From the NCBI GenBank assembly GCA_028583405.1, contig CM053260.1:28062735-28126734 (forward strand): a stretch of 64,000 bases of DNA. The letters run 5' to 3'. Of the stretch, positions 27,538 through 61,222 are shown in pieces. Source of the DNA: Pogonophryne albipinna. Its lineage: Eukaryota; Chordata; Actinopteri; Perciformes; Artedidraconidae. The first letter of the stretch is position 1, and each line of letters begins with the position of its first letter. The notes beneath the pieces were generated by a model. It searched no databases. It was not told the DNA's origin and saw nothing but the letters and a program-made list of their open reading frames with translations. A program made the translations under genes and the position numbers.

Positions 27538-27642
27538 GCCAGTGCAAACAGACGATGTTGGTGAAGGACAGGATGGATGTATGAGGACGGCAAAAACAAT
27601 GATTTAAAGCTCATCACTTCCTGTTGTTGTTTCTTTCTCTAG

Positions 27643-27707
27643 TGAACCTACTCGAAACGACGACCATCAGCGGAGACTGGGGCTGGCTGACGTACCCGTC
27701 ACATGGG
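27643..27707 (+). CDS. epha8: ephA8 exon 2, start of ephrin-binding domain
   Basis: 65-bp exon. The first two bases finish a split valine codon (first base in exon 1), then 21 codons follow, beginning NLLETTTISG and ending DWGWLTYPSHG. This is the first strand region of the ephrin-binding domain just after the signal peptide. The acceptor has a good pyrimidine tract (tttctttctctag) and the donor is GGG|gtaaga. The 65-bp length and the phase 1 start / phase 0 end match the second exon of EPH genes as I recall them. The flanking introns are very long. A (GGGT)n run and a (TG)n tract lie about 105-210 bp upstream. Confidence 0.93.
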
Positions 27708-48574: not shown

Positions 48575-49400
48575 GATTTCTGTGCATGTAAATGGTCTTC
48601 AGAGGCAACAATCCCTGTATTTCTCTCTTACAGATAACCCCCCCCCCCCCCCCCCTGCCTGAAACGCCTCCATTGGACTCCTTTGTTTACTTCCAGTACA
48701 TACTGACATCAATATGTAACAGTTGCACCTCTATTGGCTAGCGCTCCAACACATTGTACGTGATAGGCTAAGGGGCGGGACCAGAGGTTGCGCTAGACTT
48801 TTTCGCTGCCTGACTGGATCGTAACATTTCCGTCAAAATCCATTATAACCCGTCGGCCTTACACAACTCTGCCGGGGGGGGGGTTGGCAGCAGACGCGCT
48901 AACAACTCTTAGCTCCGTGTTATGCATGCCCACTGCACCTCACGGGAGCGCACGCAGCGTACAGCAAGTAGCCTACTCGCAGACATTTCAATGATCTGTT
49001 TGGCAAAGTTAGGTTTGGAAACGATATCCTTTCCTTTTGGGAGAGAATGCATCATAACACGGCATAACACCGGAGCCCTGCTGCGAGGACACTTTGGCGC
49101 TGTTCTGAGTTTGTACTAATCCGTCAAAATGACGGACGGCTTTCAGATTTTTCCGTCATTGTTAAAAAAAATACGTCATAGACGGAAAATATTCGGTTAA
49201 CGCGACCTCTGGGCGGGACATCTCTAAGCGGTTGACCAATCACAACAGAGCCTGCCAGCTAACCAATCAGAGCAGACTGGGCTCTGGTTTCAGACAGAGG
49301 GTGAAAAGAGGTGCTGCAGCACAGGCAGTACGAAGAAAATAAAGAGCTTTTTGAACATTAAAGCATGGAGACATGTCCCAGTAGAGACACTACATACTGA
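48575..49400 (-). repeat. Dispersed repeat B, copy 4, split by a hAT MITE
   Basis: gtgcatgtaaatggtcttca, gtgataggctaaggggcggg | MITE 48782-49211 | gggacatctctaagcggttg, cagagcagactgggctctgg, gtgctgcagcacaggcag. It runs without a break into the 57-bp minisatellite. Confidence 0.7.
48782..49211. mobile_element. 430-bp hAT-like MITE with perfect 8-bp target duplication
   Basis: CAGAGGTTGCG at the left and CGCGACCTCTG at the right. GGCGGGAC flanks both sides (48774-48781, 49212-49219). Joining the flanks restores aggggcgggacatctct of repeat B, proving the insertion. Poly-G at about 48874-48883. Confidence 0.92.
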
Positions 49401-51063
49401 TATGAACCTGAACATCAGCAGGAGAGGACTCTTTAAAGTAGAGACATTACATACTGATATACACCTGAACATCAGCAGGAGAGGACTCTTTAAAGTAGAG
49501 ACACTACATACTGATATACACCTGAACATCAGCAGGAGAGGACTCTTTAAAGTAGAGACACTACATACTGATATACACCTGAACATCAGCAGGAGAGGAC
49601 TCTTTAAAGTAGAGACACTACACACTGATATACACCTGAACATCAGCAGGAGAGGACTCTTTAAAGTAGAGACACTACATACTGATATACACCTGAACAT
49701 CAGCAGGAGAGGACTCTTTAAAGTAGAGACACTACATACTGATATACACCTGAACATCAGCAGGAGAGGACTCTTTAAAGTAGAGACACTACATACTGAT
49801 ATACACCTGAACATCAGCAGGAGAGGACTCTTTAAAGTAGAGACACTACATACTGATATACACCTGAACATCAGCAGGAGAGGACTCTTTAAAGTAGAGA
49901 CACTACACACTGATATACACTTGAACATCAGCAGGAGAGGACTCTTTAAAGTAGAGACACTACATACTGATATACACCTGAACATCAGCAGGAGAGGACT
50001 CTTTAAAGTAGAGACACTACATACTGATATACACCTGAACATCAGCAGGAGAGGACTCTTTAAAGTAGAGACACTACGTACTGATATACACCTGAACATC
50101 AGCAGGAGAGGACTCTTTAAAGTAGACACACTACATCCTGATATACACCTGAACATCAGCAGGAGAGGACTCTTTAAAGTAGAGACATTACATACTGATA
50201 TACACCTGAACATCAGCAGGAGAGGACTCTTTAAAGTAGAGACACTACATACTGATATACACCTGAACATCAGCAGGAGAGGACTCTTTAAAGTAGAGAC
50301 ACTACATACTGATATACACCTGAACATCAGCAGGAGAGGACTCTTTAAAGTAGAGACACTACACACTGATATACACCTGAACATCAGCAGGAGAGGACTC
50401 TTTAAAGTAGAGACACTACATACTGATATACACCTGAACATCAGCAGGAGAGGACTCTTTAAAGTAGAGACACTACATACTGATATACACCTGAACATCA
50501 GCAGGAGAGGACTCTTTAAAGTAGAGACACTACATACTGATATACACCTGAACATCAGCAGGAGAGGACTCTTTAAAGTAGAGACACTACATACTGATAT
50601 ACACCTGAACATCAGCAGGAGAGGACTCTTTAAAGTAGAGACACTACACACTGATATACACTTGAACATCAGCAGGAGAGGACTCTTTAAAGTAGAGACA
50701 CTACATACTGATATACACCTGAACATCAGCAGGAGAGGACTCTTTAAAGTAGAGACACTACATACTGATATACACCTGAACATCAGCAGGAGAGGACTCT
50801 TTAAAGTAGAGACACTACGTACTGATATACACCTGAACATCAGCAGGAGAGGACTCTTTAAAGTAGACACACTACATCCTGATATACACCTGAACATCAG
50901 CAGGAGAGGACTCTTTAAAGTAGAGACACTACATACTGATATACACCTGAACATCAGCAGGAGAGGACTCTTTAAAGTAGAGACACTACATACTGATATA
51001 CACCTGAACATCAGCAGGAGAGGACTCTTTAAAGTAGAGACACTACATCCTGATATACACCTG
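49381..51063. repeat. 57-bp minisatellite, about 29.5 units
   Basis: Unit gtagagacactacatactga + tatacacctgaacatcagca + ggagaggactctttaaa. 57 is a multiple of 3 and the unit lacks stops in some frames, so about 575-595-codon frames run through it on both strands (19-residue repeats such as VETLHTDIHLNISRRGLFK); no evidence of a gene. Marker variants recur exactly 741 bp apart (13 units), so the array has a higher-order duplication. It grew from the end of a repeat B copy. Confidence 0.95.
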
Positions 51064-52115
51064 AAGACAGATTGACTCATTTGACTGTGTATCTCAGTTA
51101 AATGAGATGCAAATGGTTATGTTTGTACTGTTTCTGTAGAATAAAAACAAAGACATTGTGTGATATTTGAAGTTGGCACACGAGAAGATTATTTCTTTAA
51201 TCTTCTCCGACACTGCAAACTAGGCCTTTGTGCCCACTGGTGCATCCAAAAACAAATCTTTATTTTGAATGTAATCTTCCTGTGCGTGCCGCTACATGAA
51301 ATCTGTGCATGTGCTCGGCCCCTCATCAGCAGAGAGAGGCATTTGGGAGTGCAGCTTATATCTCCTCACAACACACTCAGACTGCAGTAGTAGGTGAGAA
51401 GGAGGTGTAACGCACAACACATTTAGAAATACTGCTCCTTCTTAGTAATTATATGATGTTCTGCAGGCAGCATTCAGTAAACAATGTAAATCTAATCACA
51501 TACATAAGGGGCATCTCATTAAGGGGGAATGGGTCCCCATAGAAACCATTAAGGGACTTCCAACATGCAGGAATGCAGATCACATGGCTGCATGTGTTCA
51601 CCGTCGCTCGCCTGAACAGAATATATCAGCATGTGAAACACCAGGAGGAATAATCCCACTTTAACAATGTTTACTAAAATGTAATCTCTGGGGAAATAAA
51701 ATGGATTCTGGAAAAGTTACATTAGCGGGATTATGTCATCAGGGTACAACACTAAATGACTGTAACCCTTTACAGTTACAAGTGTGCATCTAATCTTCTA
51801 CTGCCTGAATCTGCTCCACTTTCTTTGCTTCAGTTGTTCTGTTTTTAATTCAGCAGGTGAACCTATATGTTCATAACATAGTGTGTGTGAGTTTAACTGT
51901 GTGTGTTAAACTGAAACGGAGCATCTTCTGTCAGCTCAGATTTTATTTCTGCTTTTTTAAACTGTAGTATGCTCATGAGTTTCAGTGTTGGAGTATAGGC
52001 TACTGCCTGAATATGATTCATGAAAGGCAGGTTTTCCTTTAAATAAAATCATTTCTGATCCTAAATATCTTGGTTTCTTCTTTTCTAAGGTCACAATGTT
52101 CTTTTTGTTTGTTTG

Positions 52116-52662: not shown

Positions 52663-52716
52663 TGGGATGCCATTAATGAGATGGACGAGTACTTCACTCC
52701 CATCCACACATACCAG
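52663..52716 (+). CDS. epha8: ephA8 exon 3a (first quarter of canonical exon 3)
   Basis: 54-bp exon of 18 codons, WDAINEMDEYFTPIHTYQ, phase 0 at both ends. It continues the ephrin-binding domain directly from exon 2; EphA proteins have W-D/E-E-I...TPI-R/H-TYQVCN here. The acceptor is ttccttctcttcacag and the donor CAG|gtgtgtaac. In other vertebrates, from memory, the coding sequence runs on without an intron into VCN. The intron bases gtgtgtaac would themselves read VCN, then continue to a stop at 52747-52749, so intron retention would truncate the protein after a pseudo-VCN. The short in-frame exon could be skipped without a frameshift. Confidence 0.92.
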
Positions 52717-53785
52717 GTGTGTAACCCTCTCACTGCTTTGTACAGTTAATTATATCAAGAACTCCAGTGGAATATATCACTTTGATCTCAGAAAACGTGG
52801 GTTTTTTTTTCAAGGTGAATCAGGTTCCTGTTTCTGTGACATAAACTGAAAACTTAAGTACCAATTATTCTACTATATTCCTTTGATTATATGATAATTT
52901 TTGGAATAGAAATATATATTGTAAAACCGTTTCTGTAGGTGTTAAAACTCACTTAATTACTGTTTAAGGTTGTATTTCATTATTTACACTCTTCAGATCA
53001 TTACAATGATATCGTATATACAGTAAGGAAGGCAAGTTCAAACACAAACTCCAAGGACATTTTTAGCAGACACAAAAATGTTTGCAATTCTTAATTCAAT
53101 AAACATAACATTAGCAACAATTCTAATTCAAATATCCCAAACATTTATTGAAGCAAAACGACTAACTATTCAGTTGTTCCGTCTTTTCTTAGTGTAGTAA
53201 GTTGACATTTGTATTGCCATCATTCCAGTTACTTGGACAATTTTTGTAATACTTTTTGTTTGGCTTGCAGATTCATTTTCGTCTTCCAGCCTTAATCTAT
53301 AACTTGTATTTCCCAACGTACAGAGGTCATGACCCAGTGTCATCGTTGGTAGCTTCAAACCTGACCGCAGCCAACATTGTTAATGTAGAGCCACCAAAAC
53401 AAAATGGCAGCGCATATTATTAATGTATGTTTCTAAAATGTTAAACCAATGCTAGAGATGCATGTGGATTGTTCTACTCTTACCAGTCGTTCAAATGACA
53501 AATCACATCTTCAGGACAAAACATCATCCACAGATATCTACTGTCAAGACGTTTATTAATATTGATGATGTATGTTCAGAATCAGAATACCTTTATTCGT
53601 CCCACAGAGAGGACATTTTGTTACAGCAGAAAAAGAGCCAAACACAGCTTAATGTTACCTAAGAAGCATGCTTAACAAAAATGTAAAAGATATTGTACAC
53701 ATTGCACATATTGCGCATGGTTGGTATATAAGTACAAGGGGTGTTATAGCTAGAGTTCCTGATTATAGCACTGTCTCTGGTTCAG
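52717..53785 (+). other. Extra intron 3A splitting canonical exon 3 (1069 bp)
   Basis: Phase-0 GT-AG intron between TYQ and VCN. Its first bases gtgtgtaac differ at one position from the first nine bases of exon 3b (GTCTGTAAC); with the preceding CAG, 11 of 12 bases agree. The interior is AT-rich with one recognisable dispersed repeat (aatcagaatacctttattcg at 53580-53599). No coding content seen. Confidence 0.85.
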
Positions 53786-53929
53786 GTCTGTAACGTGATG
53801 AGTCCCAGTCAGAACAACTGGGTGAGGACGGGCTGGCTCCCCAGAGAAGGAGCCCGGAGGATCTACATCGAGGTCAAGTTCACCCTGAGAGACTGCAACA
53901 GCATGCCGGGGGTCCTGGGCACCTGCAAG
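53786..53929 (+). CDS. epha8: ephA8 exon 3b (core of ephrin-binding domain)
   Basis: 144-bp exon of 48 codons, phase 0 at both ends, from [20 protein letters not shown] to [18 protein letters not shown]. It carries three cysteines. The first (VCN) normally pairs with the GAC cysteine now in exon 3d, and the RDC...GTC pair closes the ligand-channel loop; these pairings are family knowledge from Eph structures. The acceptor is ctgtctctggttcag, a weaker pyrimidine tract than the other exons, and the donor is AAG|gtaaca. A run of about 17 G starts about 16 bp into the next intron. Skipping would be frame-preserving but would delete the ligand-binding core and leave an unpaired cysteine. Confidence 0.95.
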
Positions 53930-54059
53930 GTAACACTCAGAGAGAGGGGGGGGGGGGGGGGTTGGTAGGGGGAGACAAAGCTAGAAAGAGGAGGGAAGGA
54001 GATGAGGAGAGAACTGTGAGCGAGGAAAGGAGATCAAGCTGGAAAGTCCCACTTAAGAT

Positions 54060-54265
54060 TTATTTATTTAATCTTTTTATTTGTCAATTTATTTAACGTG
54101 TTAGAAACAAAACAAACAATAATAATAATTAGAGAAGCCAGATAACAACAAAAAAACGCTCTGGGTATAAAAACATATATAAAAATAAATTCTCAAATAG
54201 TTTCTGTCATGTTCAAAAGGGGCAAGAAGAAGCTTAAAAACGTTTCTGGTCCTCCCCCATCTAAC
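54060..54265 (-). repeat. Dispersed repeat C, inverse copy in intron 3B
   Basis: ttatttgtcaatttatttaa ... ttctgtcatgttcaaaaggg, gcaagaagaagcttaaaaac, ctggtcctccccc: the inverse of 13530-13775. Confidence 0.55.
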
Positions 54266-54689
54266 GTACATTCTTCATAAAAATCAAAGTGTAGGTCATC
54301 GGCATCCGTGATATTTGATTCGATGTTTTAAATTAAAAAAAAATTGTACAAAAAAATTCAAAATAAAAGAAATAACTTTTACAACAACAATAAATAGCAA
54401 GCATCGCGTCACACGTCCTGCTCATATCCAATCGGATTTGGTTTATAATTAATAGTTTTAGTTTAGATAAAGCTGCACGGTATTTCAGCTCATCGTTATT
54501 CCACAGATTGTTTAAGATCTGGAAAAATATCTTATCTAAGAGATGACGTGCAGCGTCATTAATGACAAAAGAACACCAACATGGTGATCAGGATCTTGCA
54601 ACGAGTTCACTCACAATATTGATTTTTAATGATTTTTTTTTTTTTATATTTGTATTGCTTCGGCTAAGAAAAATGTAATTTACCGGACT

Positions 54690-54845
54690 TCTTACTGCTT
54701 ATTGATAGGACTGTACTTACAGTGTTGTCCCTTGATCCTCCTTAACAACAGCCATATTCTCCTTAGCAGCGGTGTGTTAGCGAAAATTAACAACCTCTGA
54801 AATATCCAAACTGACCAATCAGAATCGAGTATTCAGAAAAGCCTT
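54690..54845 (-). repeat. Dispersed repeat A, fragment in intron 3B
   Basis: cttgatcctccttaacaaca, ccttagcagcggtgtgttag and ctgaccaatcagaatcgagt match the inverse of the 5' part of repeat A. Confidence 0.55.
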
Positions 54846-54980
54846 GAAACATTACCAAATAAAATGTGTTTTACCAATTGAGGTAGTTTCAGTCCATATT
54901 TAAAGAGTAAACTAGGTTAAAATGTATAGCTAATGTTGTTACATTTACACGTGATCTTTCTACCTTTTTTTGTTCTACAG

Positions 54981-55130
54981 GAAACCTTCAACCTGTACTA
55001 CTACGAGTCCGACAGGGCGGTGGGCTCAGCGGTGCGGGAGAACCAGTTTATTAAGATCGACACCATCGCTGCTGACGAGAGTTTTACAGGCGTGGACCTG
55101 GGGGTCCGCAGACTCAAACTCAACACTGAG
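54981..55130 (+). CDS. epha8: ephA8 exon 3c (second half of ephrin-binding domain)
   Basis: 150-bp exon of 50 codons, phase 0 at both ends. It begins [20 protein letters not shown], passes through [18 protein letters not shown], and ends [20 protein letters not shown] is near-invariant in Eph receptors, and [15 protein letters not shown] is the best EphA8-type signature in the window. The acceptor has a strong pyrimidine tract (ctttttttgttctacag) and the donor is GAG|gtatga. The next intron holds a 2.6 kb minisatellite-bearing hAT element starting 82 bp after the donor. GC content and codon use match the neighbouring exons and contrast with the AT-rich introns. Confidence 0.95.
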
Positions 55131-55212
55131 GTATGAGCAACAACACCAAACAACAGCATGGTCCAAACCACAGGTAGATGTCAGTCCAGGCTCTTTGAAG
55201 CAATGTCTTACT

Positions 55213-57809
55213 CAGAGATGGCAAAAGTACACACATCCTTTACTCAAGTAGAAGTACAGATACTCGTGTTTAAAAATACTCTGGTGAAAGTAGAAATACT
55301 GACTAAACTTCTTTACTCAAGTGAAAGTAAAGGCTTTGAAATGTACTTAAGTAAAAAGTACCCATAACTAGCAGCTGTTTTAAAGAGTACCTGACCTCCC
55401 TTTATATTAATAGAACAATAATGTCATTGTTAGCTAATGAATGTTTCCATGCTGAACAACGGCAACATGACAACGTTTCCATTGGTCCCTCTTCTTTAGA
55501 GAAGACCAGGAAATGATGGATACACGGATCGTGTTCAGATCAATAGGCACGCAATGACTCTAAAGAATAATGATCACGCCACCAAACACACATTCAGACT
55601 AAAGGAACCAGCTGTTTGGAAAATGAGAGAAGTAGAAAGTACAGGTATTTGAGTTCAACATGTAAGAAGTAGAAAGTACAGGTATTTGTGTTCAACATGT
55701 AAGAAGTAGAAAGTACAGGTATTTGTGTTCAACATGTAAGAAGGAGAAAGTACAGGTATTTGAGTTCAACATGTAAGAAGTAGAAAGTACAGGTATTTGG
55801 GTTCAACATGTAAGAAGTAGAAAGTACAGGTATTTGTGTTCAACATGTAAGAAGTAGAAAGTACAGGTATTTGAGTTCAACATGTAAGAAGTAGAAAGTA
55901 CAGGTATTTGGGTTCAACATGTAAGAAGTAGAAAGTACAGGTATTTGGGTTCAAAATGTAAGAAGTAGAAAGTACAGGTATTTGTGTTCAACATGTAAGA
56001 AGTAGAAAGTACAGGTATTTGTGTTCAACATGTAAGAAGTAGAAAGTACAGGTATTTGTGTTCAACATGTAAGAAGTAGAAAGTACAGGTATTTGAGTTC
56101 AACATGTAAGAAGTAGAAAGTACAGGTATTTGTGTTCAACATGTAAGAAGTAGAAAGTACAGGTATTTGTGTTCAACATGTAAGAAGTAGAAAGTTCAGG
56201 TATTTGGGTTCAAAATGTAAGAAGTAGAAAGTACAGGTATTTGTGTTCAAAATGTAAGAAGTAGAAAGTACAGGTATTTGTGTTCAACATGTAAGAAGTA
56301 GAAAGTACAGGTATTTGGGTTCAAAATGTAAGAAGTAGAAAGTACAGGTATTTGGGTTCAACATGTAAGAAGTAGAAAGTACAGGTATTTGTGTTCAACA
56401 TGTAAGAAGTAGAAAGTACAGGTATTTGGGTTCAAAATGTAAGAAGTAGAAAGTACAGGTATTTGTGTTCAAAATGTAAGAAGTAGAAAGTACAGGTATT
56501 TGTGTTCAACATGTAAGAAGTAGAAAGTACAGGTATTTGTGTTCAACATGTAAGAAGTAGAAAGTACAGGTATTTGGGTTCAACATGTAAGAAGTAGAAA
56601 GTACAGGTATTTGTGTTCAACATGTAAGAAGTAGAAAGTACAGGTATTTGTGTTCAACATGTAAGAAGTAGAAAGTACAGGTATTTGTGTTCAACATGTA
56701 AGAAGTAGAAAGTACAGGTATTTGAGTTCAACATGTAAGAAGTAGAAAGTACAGGTATTTGTGTTCAACATGTGAGAAGTAGAAAGTACAGGTATTTGAG
56801 TTCAACATGTGAGAAGTAGAAAGTACAGGTATTTGGGTTCAACATGTGAGAAGTAGAAAGTACAGGTATTTGGGTTCAACATGTAAGAAGTAGAAAGTAC
56901 AGGTATTTGTGTTCAACATGTAAGAAGTAGAAAGTACAGGTATTTGAGTTCAACATGTAAGAAGTAGAAAGTACAGGTATTTGAGTTCAACATGTAAGAA
57001 GTAGAAAATACAGGTATTTGTGTTCAACATGTAAGAAGTAGAAAGTACAGGTATTTGTGTTCAACATGTAAGAAGTAGAAAGTACAGGTATTTGGGTTCA
57101 ACATGTAAGAAGTAGAAAGTACAGGTATTTGTGTTCAACATGTAAGAAGTAGAAAGTACAGGTATTTGAGTTCAACATAAGAAGTAGAAAGTACAGGTAT
57201 TTGGGTTCAACATGTAAGAAGTAGAAAGTACAGGTATTTGAGTTCAACATGTAAGAAGTAGAAAGTACAGGTATTTGGGTTCAACATGTAAGAAGTAGAA
57301 AGTACAGGTATTTGTGTTCAACATGTAAGAAGTAGAAAGTACAGGTATTTGTGTTCAACATGTAAGAAGTAGAAAGTACAGGTATTTGGGTTCAACATGT
57401 AAGAAGTAGAAAGTACAGGTATTTGTGTTCAACATGTAAGAAGTAGAAAGTACAGGTATTTGTGTTCAACATGTAAGAAGTAGAAAGTACAGGTATTTGT
57501 GTTCAACATGTAAGAAGTAGAAAGTACAGGTATTTGGGTTCAACATGTAAGAAGTAGAAAGTACAGGTATTTGGGTTCAACATGTAAGAAGTAGAAAGTA
57601 CAGGTATTTGGGTTCAACATGTAAGAAGTAGAAAGTACAGGTATTTGGGTTCAACATGTAAGAAGTAGAAAGTACAGGTATTTGTGTTCAAAATGTAAGA
57701 AGTAAAAGTAAAAAGTTGTCAGAGGGATAGTGGAGTAAAGTACTGATACCAGAAAAATGTACTTAAGTACAGTAACAAAGTATTTGTACTCCATTACTTC
57801 CCACCTCTG
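55213..57809. mobile_element. hAT-like element expanded by a minisatellite, perfect 8-bp target duplication
   Basis: Left end CAGAGATGGCAAAAGTACAC, right end ccattacttcccacctctg (inverse of CAGAGGTGGGAAGTAATG). GTCTTACT flanks it at 55205-55212 and 57810-57817. The interior is aagtaaaagtac-rich like the 21.6 kb element. Most of its 2597 bp is the 37-bp array. It lies in extra intron 3C of ephA8. Confidence 0.9.
55625..57705. repeat. 37-bp minisatellite, about 56 units
   Basis: Unit gtaagaagtagaaagtacag + gtatttgNgttcaacat, where N is T, A or G and marks unit types. Other variants: aaaatg for acatg, gtgag for gtaag (three neighbouring units about 56770-56850), and a 2-bp deletion near 57177. 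Confidence 0.95.
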
Positions 57810-59897
57810 GTCTTACTTTGGATTTTAAGTGCACTCTGATTCTCAGCACGTACACCTCTGCAGAAGTTCAAGACGAGTTGGAGAGATCCACAGAGAGAAC
57901 CTCTTCCTGTCTGTCACTCGCTGCAGATCTGTTAAAGGAAACCAACAGCAGTTCAGCATCATGGGAAATACTTTGATATCGATAGCAGCTTCAAATTTGA
58001 TGCTGGGTAGTGGAGCTTGTCTTTTATTGATACCTTACATTGTTAGAAAGATGAAGATATAAAGGGAATGGTATAATTCTTTGCAAACTGTCCTTACATC
58101 TGGTGCCCATTGATCCTGAGTTTAGTATAGGAAGCACAACTTCAATAAGGTTGTGGTTTTGGGGGATAGCCATTGTCTCTCTCATCTTTTTAAATGTATC
58201 GCAGGAATCTGTTATTTCAATCCATTTCGATCCAAGTGCAAGCATTTGGCTAACATCTATTGTTAAGTTTAAAGAAACGATTCTCAATGTCTTCTTTTTT
58301 CATTATCAGAGTCTATTCAAGTCTTATCCTCACCATGTTCTTTAGGAAACTACTTTTATAAAGGATTATTATCACTTTACCTAATATGAAAAAAGTACCG
58401 GGCACTAACTCTGGGGCATGCTAACACTTAACACTAAATCAAAGCACTACTACTTAGTTATTAAGCTAAACCTGTTAACAATCGCTTCTCAAAAGCAGCC
58501 ATGTGCAGCTTATCTTGCTCGTAGTTCAACTTTGGGGACTTTGACTTTGACTTGCTAATTTGTGCTGTTGACCAATAGCAATCAATTTAACAACTCCAAA
58601 ATAAAGAAATCTATTAGCGGCATTTCAACATTGACTTTTCGTTACCTCATCCGTCAGGGTATAGATTCAGAGTTTAAGAAAGGTGTACATGGCAAAGATA
58701 TGTCTTTTGAATAAACAAAGCTAAGTGCTAAGAGCTAACAAATTGGCTAATTGATTGTTAGAGAATGTGTAAGCTTAGAGAGCTTTAATTTTCCTCTACA
58801 ATTGAACAAAATGGGGAAGTAGCCTACCGAACAATGGACAGATAGACAAATATTAAAAACACATCTGCCTAAGAACCATTTCATAATGCATTAGTTAGTT
58901 ATAGGCAGTTTCTATAAAGTAAATTAGAAACAACAACACTCGTTCTCACTCTCATTTACAACCATTTAAATTGTGAATAAGTCTGCAAACTGTCCCTATA
59001 GAAGCGTATAGACTTATTATATTCATAAACTTTTGAATAATGTTTTGAATCTGTGCTTGGGTGTTAACAAGATAATCAACTGTGATAGAGATAAAAAACA
59101 AGCATATCAAAATGTAAAAACGTCCATGTTTCCAGGTTGTTGTTGTTGTTGTTGTTGTTGGAGGTTGATTAATGGCTGCTGCCAAAGCACAACACCAAAC
59201 ACCAGTCCAGAGATTAAATTACAGCTGCGTTAACACTCCTGTTTTGTTCACAAACCACTGCAGAGGTTTTAATATGAAAGAGTGAGAAAACTTCTCCAAT
59301 GCGTCGGTGTACCAATCCGACTTGAGTAAATCTAATGAAACCAAACCCACACAGTCCTGATGCAGTCGATTCACTTTCTTTATTCCTCTACAACAATACA
59401 TTTTTATTGTTTTATGGAAATCCATACATTTGAACTTAAACATCTCAGTCTTACACATCGTATTTCCAGGTGTTCCGAAGTATTACTCCATATATAAAGT
59501 ATGTTTGCCTTTTTTTATCATCTTAATTAGGCAACACGTACATTTTCTGAAAGACTTAGTTTTGATTTGATTAAATGAAAACCCACTGTCTTGGTCCCTG
59601 CCCGTTTCTCTCAGCCTGTTATTCATTGTTTCGGGAGACGTAGTGAGGGAAGAGGAGCGGCGCTGTGTAGAGGAGACGGTTATCGCTGAAGATGACATTC
59701 AATTCAAACATTTAGTTATTGCCTAAAGATCGCGATCAAAGTGAAATCTTCTGAAAACCAAGATTTGTTTGCTTTAAATTAACCAAAAGCCCCAAATGAC
59801 GAAATTACAAGTTTTTCATATAAATCTATGTTTATATCGTATGATCTGTGCGACATCTGACAGATTTGTATATAGCATTTCACATATCACAATATCA

Positions 59898-60140
59898 CAC
59901 ATATCACTCCCCCCACCCATCAGAGACTGCACTGACCTCACCACCTTCAACACACTCACAAAAACTCACCTCTTCAATCTGGCTTTTAATGTGCGATTGT
60001 TTTTGTATTATTTGACTTTTTCTTTAACTATATATTTATTTGTTGTTCCTTCCTTTTCTTTTCCCTTCACTATATCTGTAAAGCGTCTTTGAGCACCTGT
60101 AAAAGCGCTAACAAATTAAATCTATTATTATTATTATTAT
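59898..60140 (+). mobile_element. L2-like LINE 3' tail, copy 3 (intron 3C)
   Basis: cacccatcagagactgcact through gcgtctttgagcacctgtaa to an (ATT)n end. The frame reads RDCTDLTTFNTLTKTHLFNL. Nearly the same truncation point as copy 2. Confidence 0.7.
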
Positions 60141-60328
60141 ATAAACACGCTCATGATGACCTGAGTCAGTGTCAAATTGACACCTATTGAGATCAGTAAG
60201 GCGTAAATTAGGTTAAAATGTAAGAGTGAAATTATCTGAAAGCCAAGATTTGTTTGTTTTAAATTCACCAAAACCCCAAAACAGTTTTTCATATAAATGA
60301 ATTTTTATATATCGTAATGATGACGATA

Positions 60329-60515
60329 GGTGGTGGCGAAGTCGATAGGGGCTCGGCTTGGCAACTGGAAGGTCACCAGTTCAAGTCCTGGCAAGACCAA
60401 GTGCTACCGAGGTGTCCCTGAGCAAGGCACCGTTCCCCACACTGCTCCTAACACTACGATGGGTCAAATGCAGAGAAACAATTTCCCCATGGGGATTAAT
60501 AAAGTATATCAAAAT
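60329..60515 (+). mobile_element. tRNA-derived SINE (Ser/Leu-like head), copy 2 in intron 3C
   Basis: ggtggtggcgaagtcgatag, ggtcaccagttcaagtcctg, gtccctgagcaaggcaccgt, ending ggattaataaagtatatc. Same strand as the gene. Confidence 0.75.
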
Positions 60516-60906
60516 CAAAAAAAAAAATCTGTTGCGACATCTAACTGATTTTGATAAGGCGGGTCACATGTAGACACTCTCATGATGACCTGAAGTGTGT
60601 GTGATGAAAGCGTCTAGATATTGCCTGAATATCAAAGTCAGATTTTTCTGAAAGCCGAGATTTGTTTGTTTTAAATTAACCAAAAAAAATGACGAAAACA
60701 CAAGTTTCAGTTCTGATAAGGTGGGTCACAAGTGTGTGTGATGAAAGCGTCAAACTGACACCTATTGAGATCAAGTGATAATGTAACTATTAAAACAAGA
60801 TATCACAGTAAAAAGTTGCATTTGTATGAACATGTTATATATATTTAGATTTATTCACCTGAAGTGTGTGTGATGAAAGTGTAAAACTGTCCTCCCCCCT
60901 CTCCAG

Positions 60907-61222
60907 GTGCGAGGCGTTGGCCCGTTGTCCAAACGAGGTTTCTACTTGGCCTTCCAGGACATCGGCGCCTGCATCGCTCTCACCTCGGTGCGAGTTTACT
61001 ACAAACGCTGCGCCGGAGTGAGCCGAAACCTGGCGGTGTTCACGGACGTAGTGACGGGGGCCGACTCCTCCTCTCTGGTGGAGGTCAGAGGTCAGTGTGT
61101 GGATCACGCCGAGGAGCGGGACACTCCCAAGATGTACTGCAGCGCCGAGGGAGAGTGGCTGGTTCCCATCGGGAGGTGTGTGTGCTCCGCTGGGTTCGAA
61201 GAGCACCGAGACTCCTGCGTGG
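60907..61222 (+). CDS. epha8: ephA8 exon 3d (end of ephrin-binding domain and start of cysteine-rich region)
   Basis: 316-bp exon, 105 codons plus one base, phase 0 start and phase 1 end. The first about 35 residues ([20 protein letters not shown]...VYYKRC) finish the ephrin-binding domain and contain the GAC cysteine expected to pair with VCN of exon 3b. The rest is the Sushi-like and first EGF-like part of the cysteine-rich region: [45 protein letters not shown], ending at DSCV. The acceptor is tcctcccccctctccag and the donor GTGG|gtgagt. The last 12 bases plus donor are copied again near 62147-62164. The following exon is not seen before the window ends. Confidence 0.95.

Follow-up and report, generated by a model that had tools for sequence, protein, structure and literature searches.

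The EphA8 locus of Pogonophryne albipinna raises the question of when three introns came to lie within an exon that vertebrate Eph genes, according to the initial annotation, encode as a single piece of about 664 bp: whether they were born recently in this lineage, inherited from an older gain, or retained from a distant ancestor and lost elsewhere. The window, meaning the whole 64,000-bp stretch of DNA that was analysed, corresponds to C19:28062735-28126734 of a 1.07-Gb genome, and the following features were located in it.

27642..27707, + strand: EphA8 exon 2 (VNLLETTTISGDWGWLTYPSHG), found by tblastn with P0008 and P0035, edges as matched and unrefined
52663..52716, + strand: exon 3a, 54 bp, WDAINEMDEYFTPIHTYQ, by sequence reading
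52717..53785, + strand: intron 1, 1069 bp, GT-AG, phase 0, CAG|GTC, same position in 15 other-fish ORFs
53786..53929, + strand: exon 3b, 144 bp, by sequence reading
53930..54980, + strand: intron 2, 1051 bp, GT-AG, phase 0, AAG|GAA, same position in 30 other-fish ORFs
54981..55130, + strand: exon 3c, 150 bp, by sequence reading
55131..60906, + strand: intron 3, 5776 bp, GT-AG, phase 0, GAG|GTG, same position in 28 exon-c and 9 exon-d ORFs
60907..61222, + strand: exon 3d, 316 bp, ending in phase 1 before gtgagt, by sequence reading

Exons 3a to 3d sum to 54+144+150+316 = 664 bp over positions 52663-61222, and their coordinates are exactly those first annotated; the junctions are GT-AG and phase 0. 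Joined, they encode 221 amino acids without a stop, and in-frame stops were met on reading through past every donor, or from upstream of every acceptor, of introns 1-3. Removal of the introns, as predicted from the DNA, would leave the protein unchanged, and the animal presumably splices them in this way.

The assignment of the gene to EphA8 held up. The 221-amino acid product matched the Pfam families Ephrin_lbd (PF01404, 1.8e-61) and Ephrin_CRD (PF25599, 3e-25), and its residues 1-220 matched solved EphA4 chains. Among the matches listed, the closest named protein by identity was an EphA8 model from Dissostichus eleginoides, with 100% identity across 93% of the query length, a match that points to a notothenioid. 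In two trees the query sorted with named EphA8 proteins and apart from EphA4/5/6/7, with support of 100/98 for the EphA8 group in one of them, and it was 82% identical to Trachemys EphA8 versus 71% to EphA4. Since cysteine-rich and two FN3-type exons follow in order downstream (C19:28144950, 28148185 and 28150969, 21-27 kb beyond exon 3d), the locus looks like a working gene. These ordered exons, the clean GT-AG phase-0 junctions, the open 221-amino acid frame and identical breakpoints in other fishes (see below) leave almost no chance that the split is a gene-model artefact, whether an apparent division that is never spliced or a degenerate copy.

Twenty Eph loci with a ligand-binding domain, a lower bound, were found among 30 matches in the P. 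albipinna genome, and in 13 of these 20 the ligand-binding exon was whole. All 13 whole exons open with AG|TGG and close with a GT donor, and they measure 637-718 bp, the lengths for L017 and L023 (666 and 657) being about 4 bp too short; those of EphA4-like L018 and EphA6-like L022 are exactly 664 bp each. The norm of a single exon of about 664 bp is thus borne out within the same genome. A protein search was also carried out, in which the best 120 of 765 hits were examined and EphA8 was the top match for 39 of the 120. Among the matches listed, 19 of these 39 were raw ORFs crossing all three intron points to the exon end, and because each begins in foreign sequence whose last residue is Q (from the CAG acceptor), they show an uninterrupted EphA8 exon. 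Sixteen of them were approximately 80-82% identical to the query, which is the range of named turtle, frog and lizard models, and the other three, P0009-P0011 (86%), grouped among ray-finned fishes but not within the euteleost clade (clade support 100/99), a placement taken from a midpoint-rooted tree of 24 rows. Whole exons in the outgroup ORFs and in the 13 paralogs support the view, held from the start, that the direction of change was gain: the EphA8 exon would have been single in the vertebrate ancestor, and gain is the best reading of its three introns.

Sharing of the intron positions was assessed by searching for ORFs limited to exon d, or to exons b and c, and inspecting the flanking sequence. 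The search with exons b and c gave 67 proteins, all of which were read; 58 were EphA8, with exon b present in 32, exon c in 28 and both exons in two of them, and the remaining 9 were not EphA8. At the junction of intron 1 with exon b, 15 of 32 rows passed from Q-ending foreign sequence straight into VCN, 14 did not extend that far, and three were fused with exon a, namely the named spliced models Haplochromis P0215 and Nothobranchius P0216 and the raw ORF P0228. In 30 of the 32 rows exon b ended at GTCK and was followed by foreign sequence whose first residue is V, as the GTN of the intron 2 donor would be read, and the two fused past this point were again the spliced models P0215 and P0216. 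Exon c was entered from foreign sequence in 25/28 rows, was fused in two (P0215 and P0216) and was not reached at its start in one, and all 28 rows passed into foreign sequence at or just past the exon end (26 by script; P0216 and P0271 by eye). The exon-d search gave 94 new proteins, 21 of them EphA8: nine showed intron 3 directly before VRG, with foreign sequence ending in Q, 11 did not extend that far, and one was fused (P0140, 83%). Support from named species was confined to intron 3, into which the Haplochromis and Nothobranchius models run; the Austrofundulus model P0130 begins a little ahead of exon d. Distinct complete peptides among the 67 proteins numbered nine for exon b (18 rows) and 15 for exon c (27 rows).

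All three positions are thus cut in the ORFs of other fishes, and the introns are not confined to one lineage as had been proposed. Recent births restricted to the lineage of P. albipinna would fit the missing introns in the 13 intact paralogs and in the 19 raw EphA8 ORFs among the matches listed, and notothenioids are reported to have made two transposon-like intron gains in slc26a2 (PMC12357937), but the same positions in many other-fish ORFs, backed for intron 3 by named cichlid and killifish models, leave such births only a very slim chance, and a recent one-lineage gain was rejected on this sharing.

The initial annotation had also allowed that the positions might prove common to teleosts, as old introns lost elsewhere; the first part largely stands, but the outgroups indicate that introns were gained here and not lost elsewhere. 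On the ancient-intron account, EphA8 would have carried the introns before the vertebrates or the bony fishes arose and lost them in tetrapods and in the fishes of P0009-P0011. Their presence in many fishes suits this, as does intron loss, which is known in teleosts; however, three losses would be required in every uninterrupted line, with losses in the 13 intact paralogs as well if the introns were older than the Eph family, and split and intact copies occur within the same fish-specific pairs. We regard this account as highly unlikely, and the uninterrupted outgroup exons disfavour it.

The reading we prefer, with a probability of about 0.92, is that the ancestrally single EphA8 exon gained its three introns at AG|G sites long ago, in the ancestry of the euteleosts, along one branch or several, and that these have since been inherited. 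The ancestral exon would have acquired three spliceosomal introns, each falling between codons and at an AG|G proto-splice site that probably existed beforehand, with introns 2 and 3 arriving before the salmonid-like line split off and intron 1 possibly later; the introns would then have been passed on, spliced cleanly and enlarged by repeats in this genome. The dating depends on P0275, whose exon c matches Oncorhynchus at 49/50 residues and Coregonus at 48/50, versus 44-46 of 50 in eight non-salmonid euteleosts (our own gene, Takifugu, Zoarces, Centroberyx, Arctogadus, Muraenolepis, Haplochromis and Nothobranchius). Since this salmonid-like sequence carries both introns 2 and 3, they seem to have been in place before salmonids and other euteleosts diverged. 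Another protein, P0136, also starts within exon d, and its sequence after exon 3 resembles a rainbow trout model. In P0228 exons a and b are fused, without intron 1, while intron 2 is present, so the introns may have been gained stepwise; intron 1 would have been either gained later or lost in the P0228 line. Which branch was involved, in what order the introns arrived and how they were inserted are inferred; the inserted sequence may have come from a transposon, from the repair of a break or from another intron.

AG|G stands at all three EphA8 intron points (3/3), and in the 13 intact paralogs of the same genome it was found at the points of introns 1, 2 and 3 in 7, 10 and 5 cases, with a background of 187/8648 positions in intact exons. 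The same motif is also favoured at exon ends by splicing, so that it argues only weakly for the site at which insertion began. An origin by tandem exon duplication was rejected, as comparison of the exons with the introns gave just two 10-base matches, although long divergence would leave little to find. Viral contigs were scanned for stray fish DNA, giving five pattern matches, none of them a relative.

Intron 1 is just 102 and 111 bp long in two other fishes versus 1069 bp here, intron 2 holds pieces with similar sequence at five further positions of the window, and the repeat listed next makes up 36% of intron 3.

55628..57710, no strand assigned: minisatellite of a 37-bp unit, approximately 56 copies, 36% of intron 3, by repeat analysis

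For these reasons at least part of the present intron size reflects later growth. Sequence like that of the minisatellite also occurs near the EphA7-like locus L024. Elsewhere in the window, positions 49380-51065 hold approximately 30 copies of a 57-bp unit that are 98% alike, and both strands are open for more than 600 codons.

Intron gain is rare in vertebrates, with teleosts a known exception, and EphA8 is a further case of this already established phenomenon. Teleost gains have been described in slc26a1/slc26a2 (PMC12357937), serpins (PMC2746811), melanocortin receptors (PMC3151243) and muscarinic receptors (PMC6298421). No paper on intron gain in an Eph gene was found in the open-licence literature, and the text of a paper on human EPHA2 and cataract contained neither 'exon 3' nor '664'. 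The slc26a1/slc26a2 gains, reported in Eurypterygii and notothenioids, resemble those of EphA8 in that a single conserved gene took in several introns early in teleost history and in that some insertion sites are common to other family members (PMC12357937). Salmonids are reported there without the slc26a1 gains, whereas a salmonid-like sequence has EphA8 introns 2 and 3, and for this reason the EphA8 gains look older. The notothenioid slc26a2 introns, on the other hand, are young and reported as transposon-like, unlike those of EphA8, which are not young (PMC12357937). The serpin gains of ray-finned fishes are similar in comprising several extra introns, mostly between codons, with GT-AG ends at proto-splice sites, but those introns measure 68-178 bp versus 1.0-5.8 kb in EphA8 (PMC2746811). 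The MC2R/MC5R gains likewise involve three introns in one receptor gene, MAG|R sites and one position common to family members, although these gains are reported to be traceable in no more than four fish genomes, all compacted, whereas the present genome is 1.07 Gb (PMC3151243). EphA8 offers three intron positions that can be traced across fishes, but it does not supply young introns with readable birth scars.

The initial annotation had called such gains rare and the locus a clean example for work on how introns arise, a description that does not suit positions shared across fishes and a genome in which six further Eph loci are split. Seven of the 20 Eph loci found (20 again being a lower bound) are split, by 15 introns of which 14 are phase 0; loci are named by closest match.

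EphA8: three introns in the ligand-binding exon
G000:C10:19370000-19379900: EphA4-like L009, two introns
G000:C10:19463500-19473400: EphA4-like L010, two introns
EphA6-like L011: three introns
EphB-like L013: two introns
EphB-like L012, more diverged: one intron
EphB6-like L014, more diverged: two introns, the first junction less certain than the others

Sites of insertion recur among these loci. GTCK^ETF is cut in both EphA8 and L009, and in L010 the cut lies one codon further on; the K^VDT site is interrupted in L011, L012 and L013, and Q^VDV in L009 and L010. GTCK^ETF and K^VDT were each used in more than one subfamily. AG|G was found at 10/15 sites, and 13/15 have AG-ending upstream sequence. 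L009 and L010 lie on opposite strands approximately 88 kb apart, with one intron position identical and another offset by one codon, an offset that corresponds to intron sliding or parallel gain. The paralog introns before VDVGD and K/Q^VDTIAAD are also common to other fishes, as seen in the 74 further proteins of the exon-d search that are not EphA8-like (P0141-P0214): foreign sequence stood before VDVGD in 20 of the 74, ending in Q in 18 of the 20, and before K/Q^VDTIAAD in two.

On a tree of the Eph loci, seven changes are required to explain the split state, and no fewer than six are forced by well-supported branches. One split and one intact copy are joined in each of three fish-specific pairs, L011/L022, L013/L016 and L009/L018, with support of 97/96 for one pair and 99/96 for the other two. 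The split copy has the longer branch in all three, at 0.20 versus 0.027, 0.22 versus 0.071 and 0.17 versus 0, a pattern of three pairs in one genome that is too few for a test. Three other Eph pairs are intact on both sides, and shuffled split labels were no less clustered than the real ones. In the muscarinic genes CHRM2 and CHRM3 one of two copies also gained introns and the gaining genes evolved faster, as in the Eph pairs, but these receptors form a separate family and the Eph pattern comes from three pairs in one genome (PMC6298421).

We consider it an even bet that teleosts have gained introns in the Eph ligand-binding exon again and again, as at a hot spot, with sites reused and the faster duplicate taking introns while its sister stays whole. 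If true, this would link the gain of introns to a loosening of constraint in one duplicate, for which the sister would serve as an internal control. With split copies and intact sisters present in one genome, and with the reused sites, the question of why one copy gains introns and the other does not becomes testable. An Eph ligand-binding fragment, P0280, was also found filed under Pasteurella multocida, and is most likely host DNA contamination.
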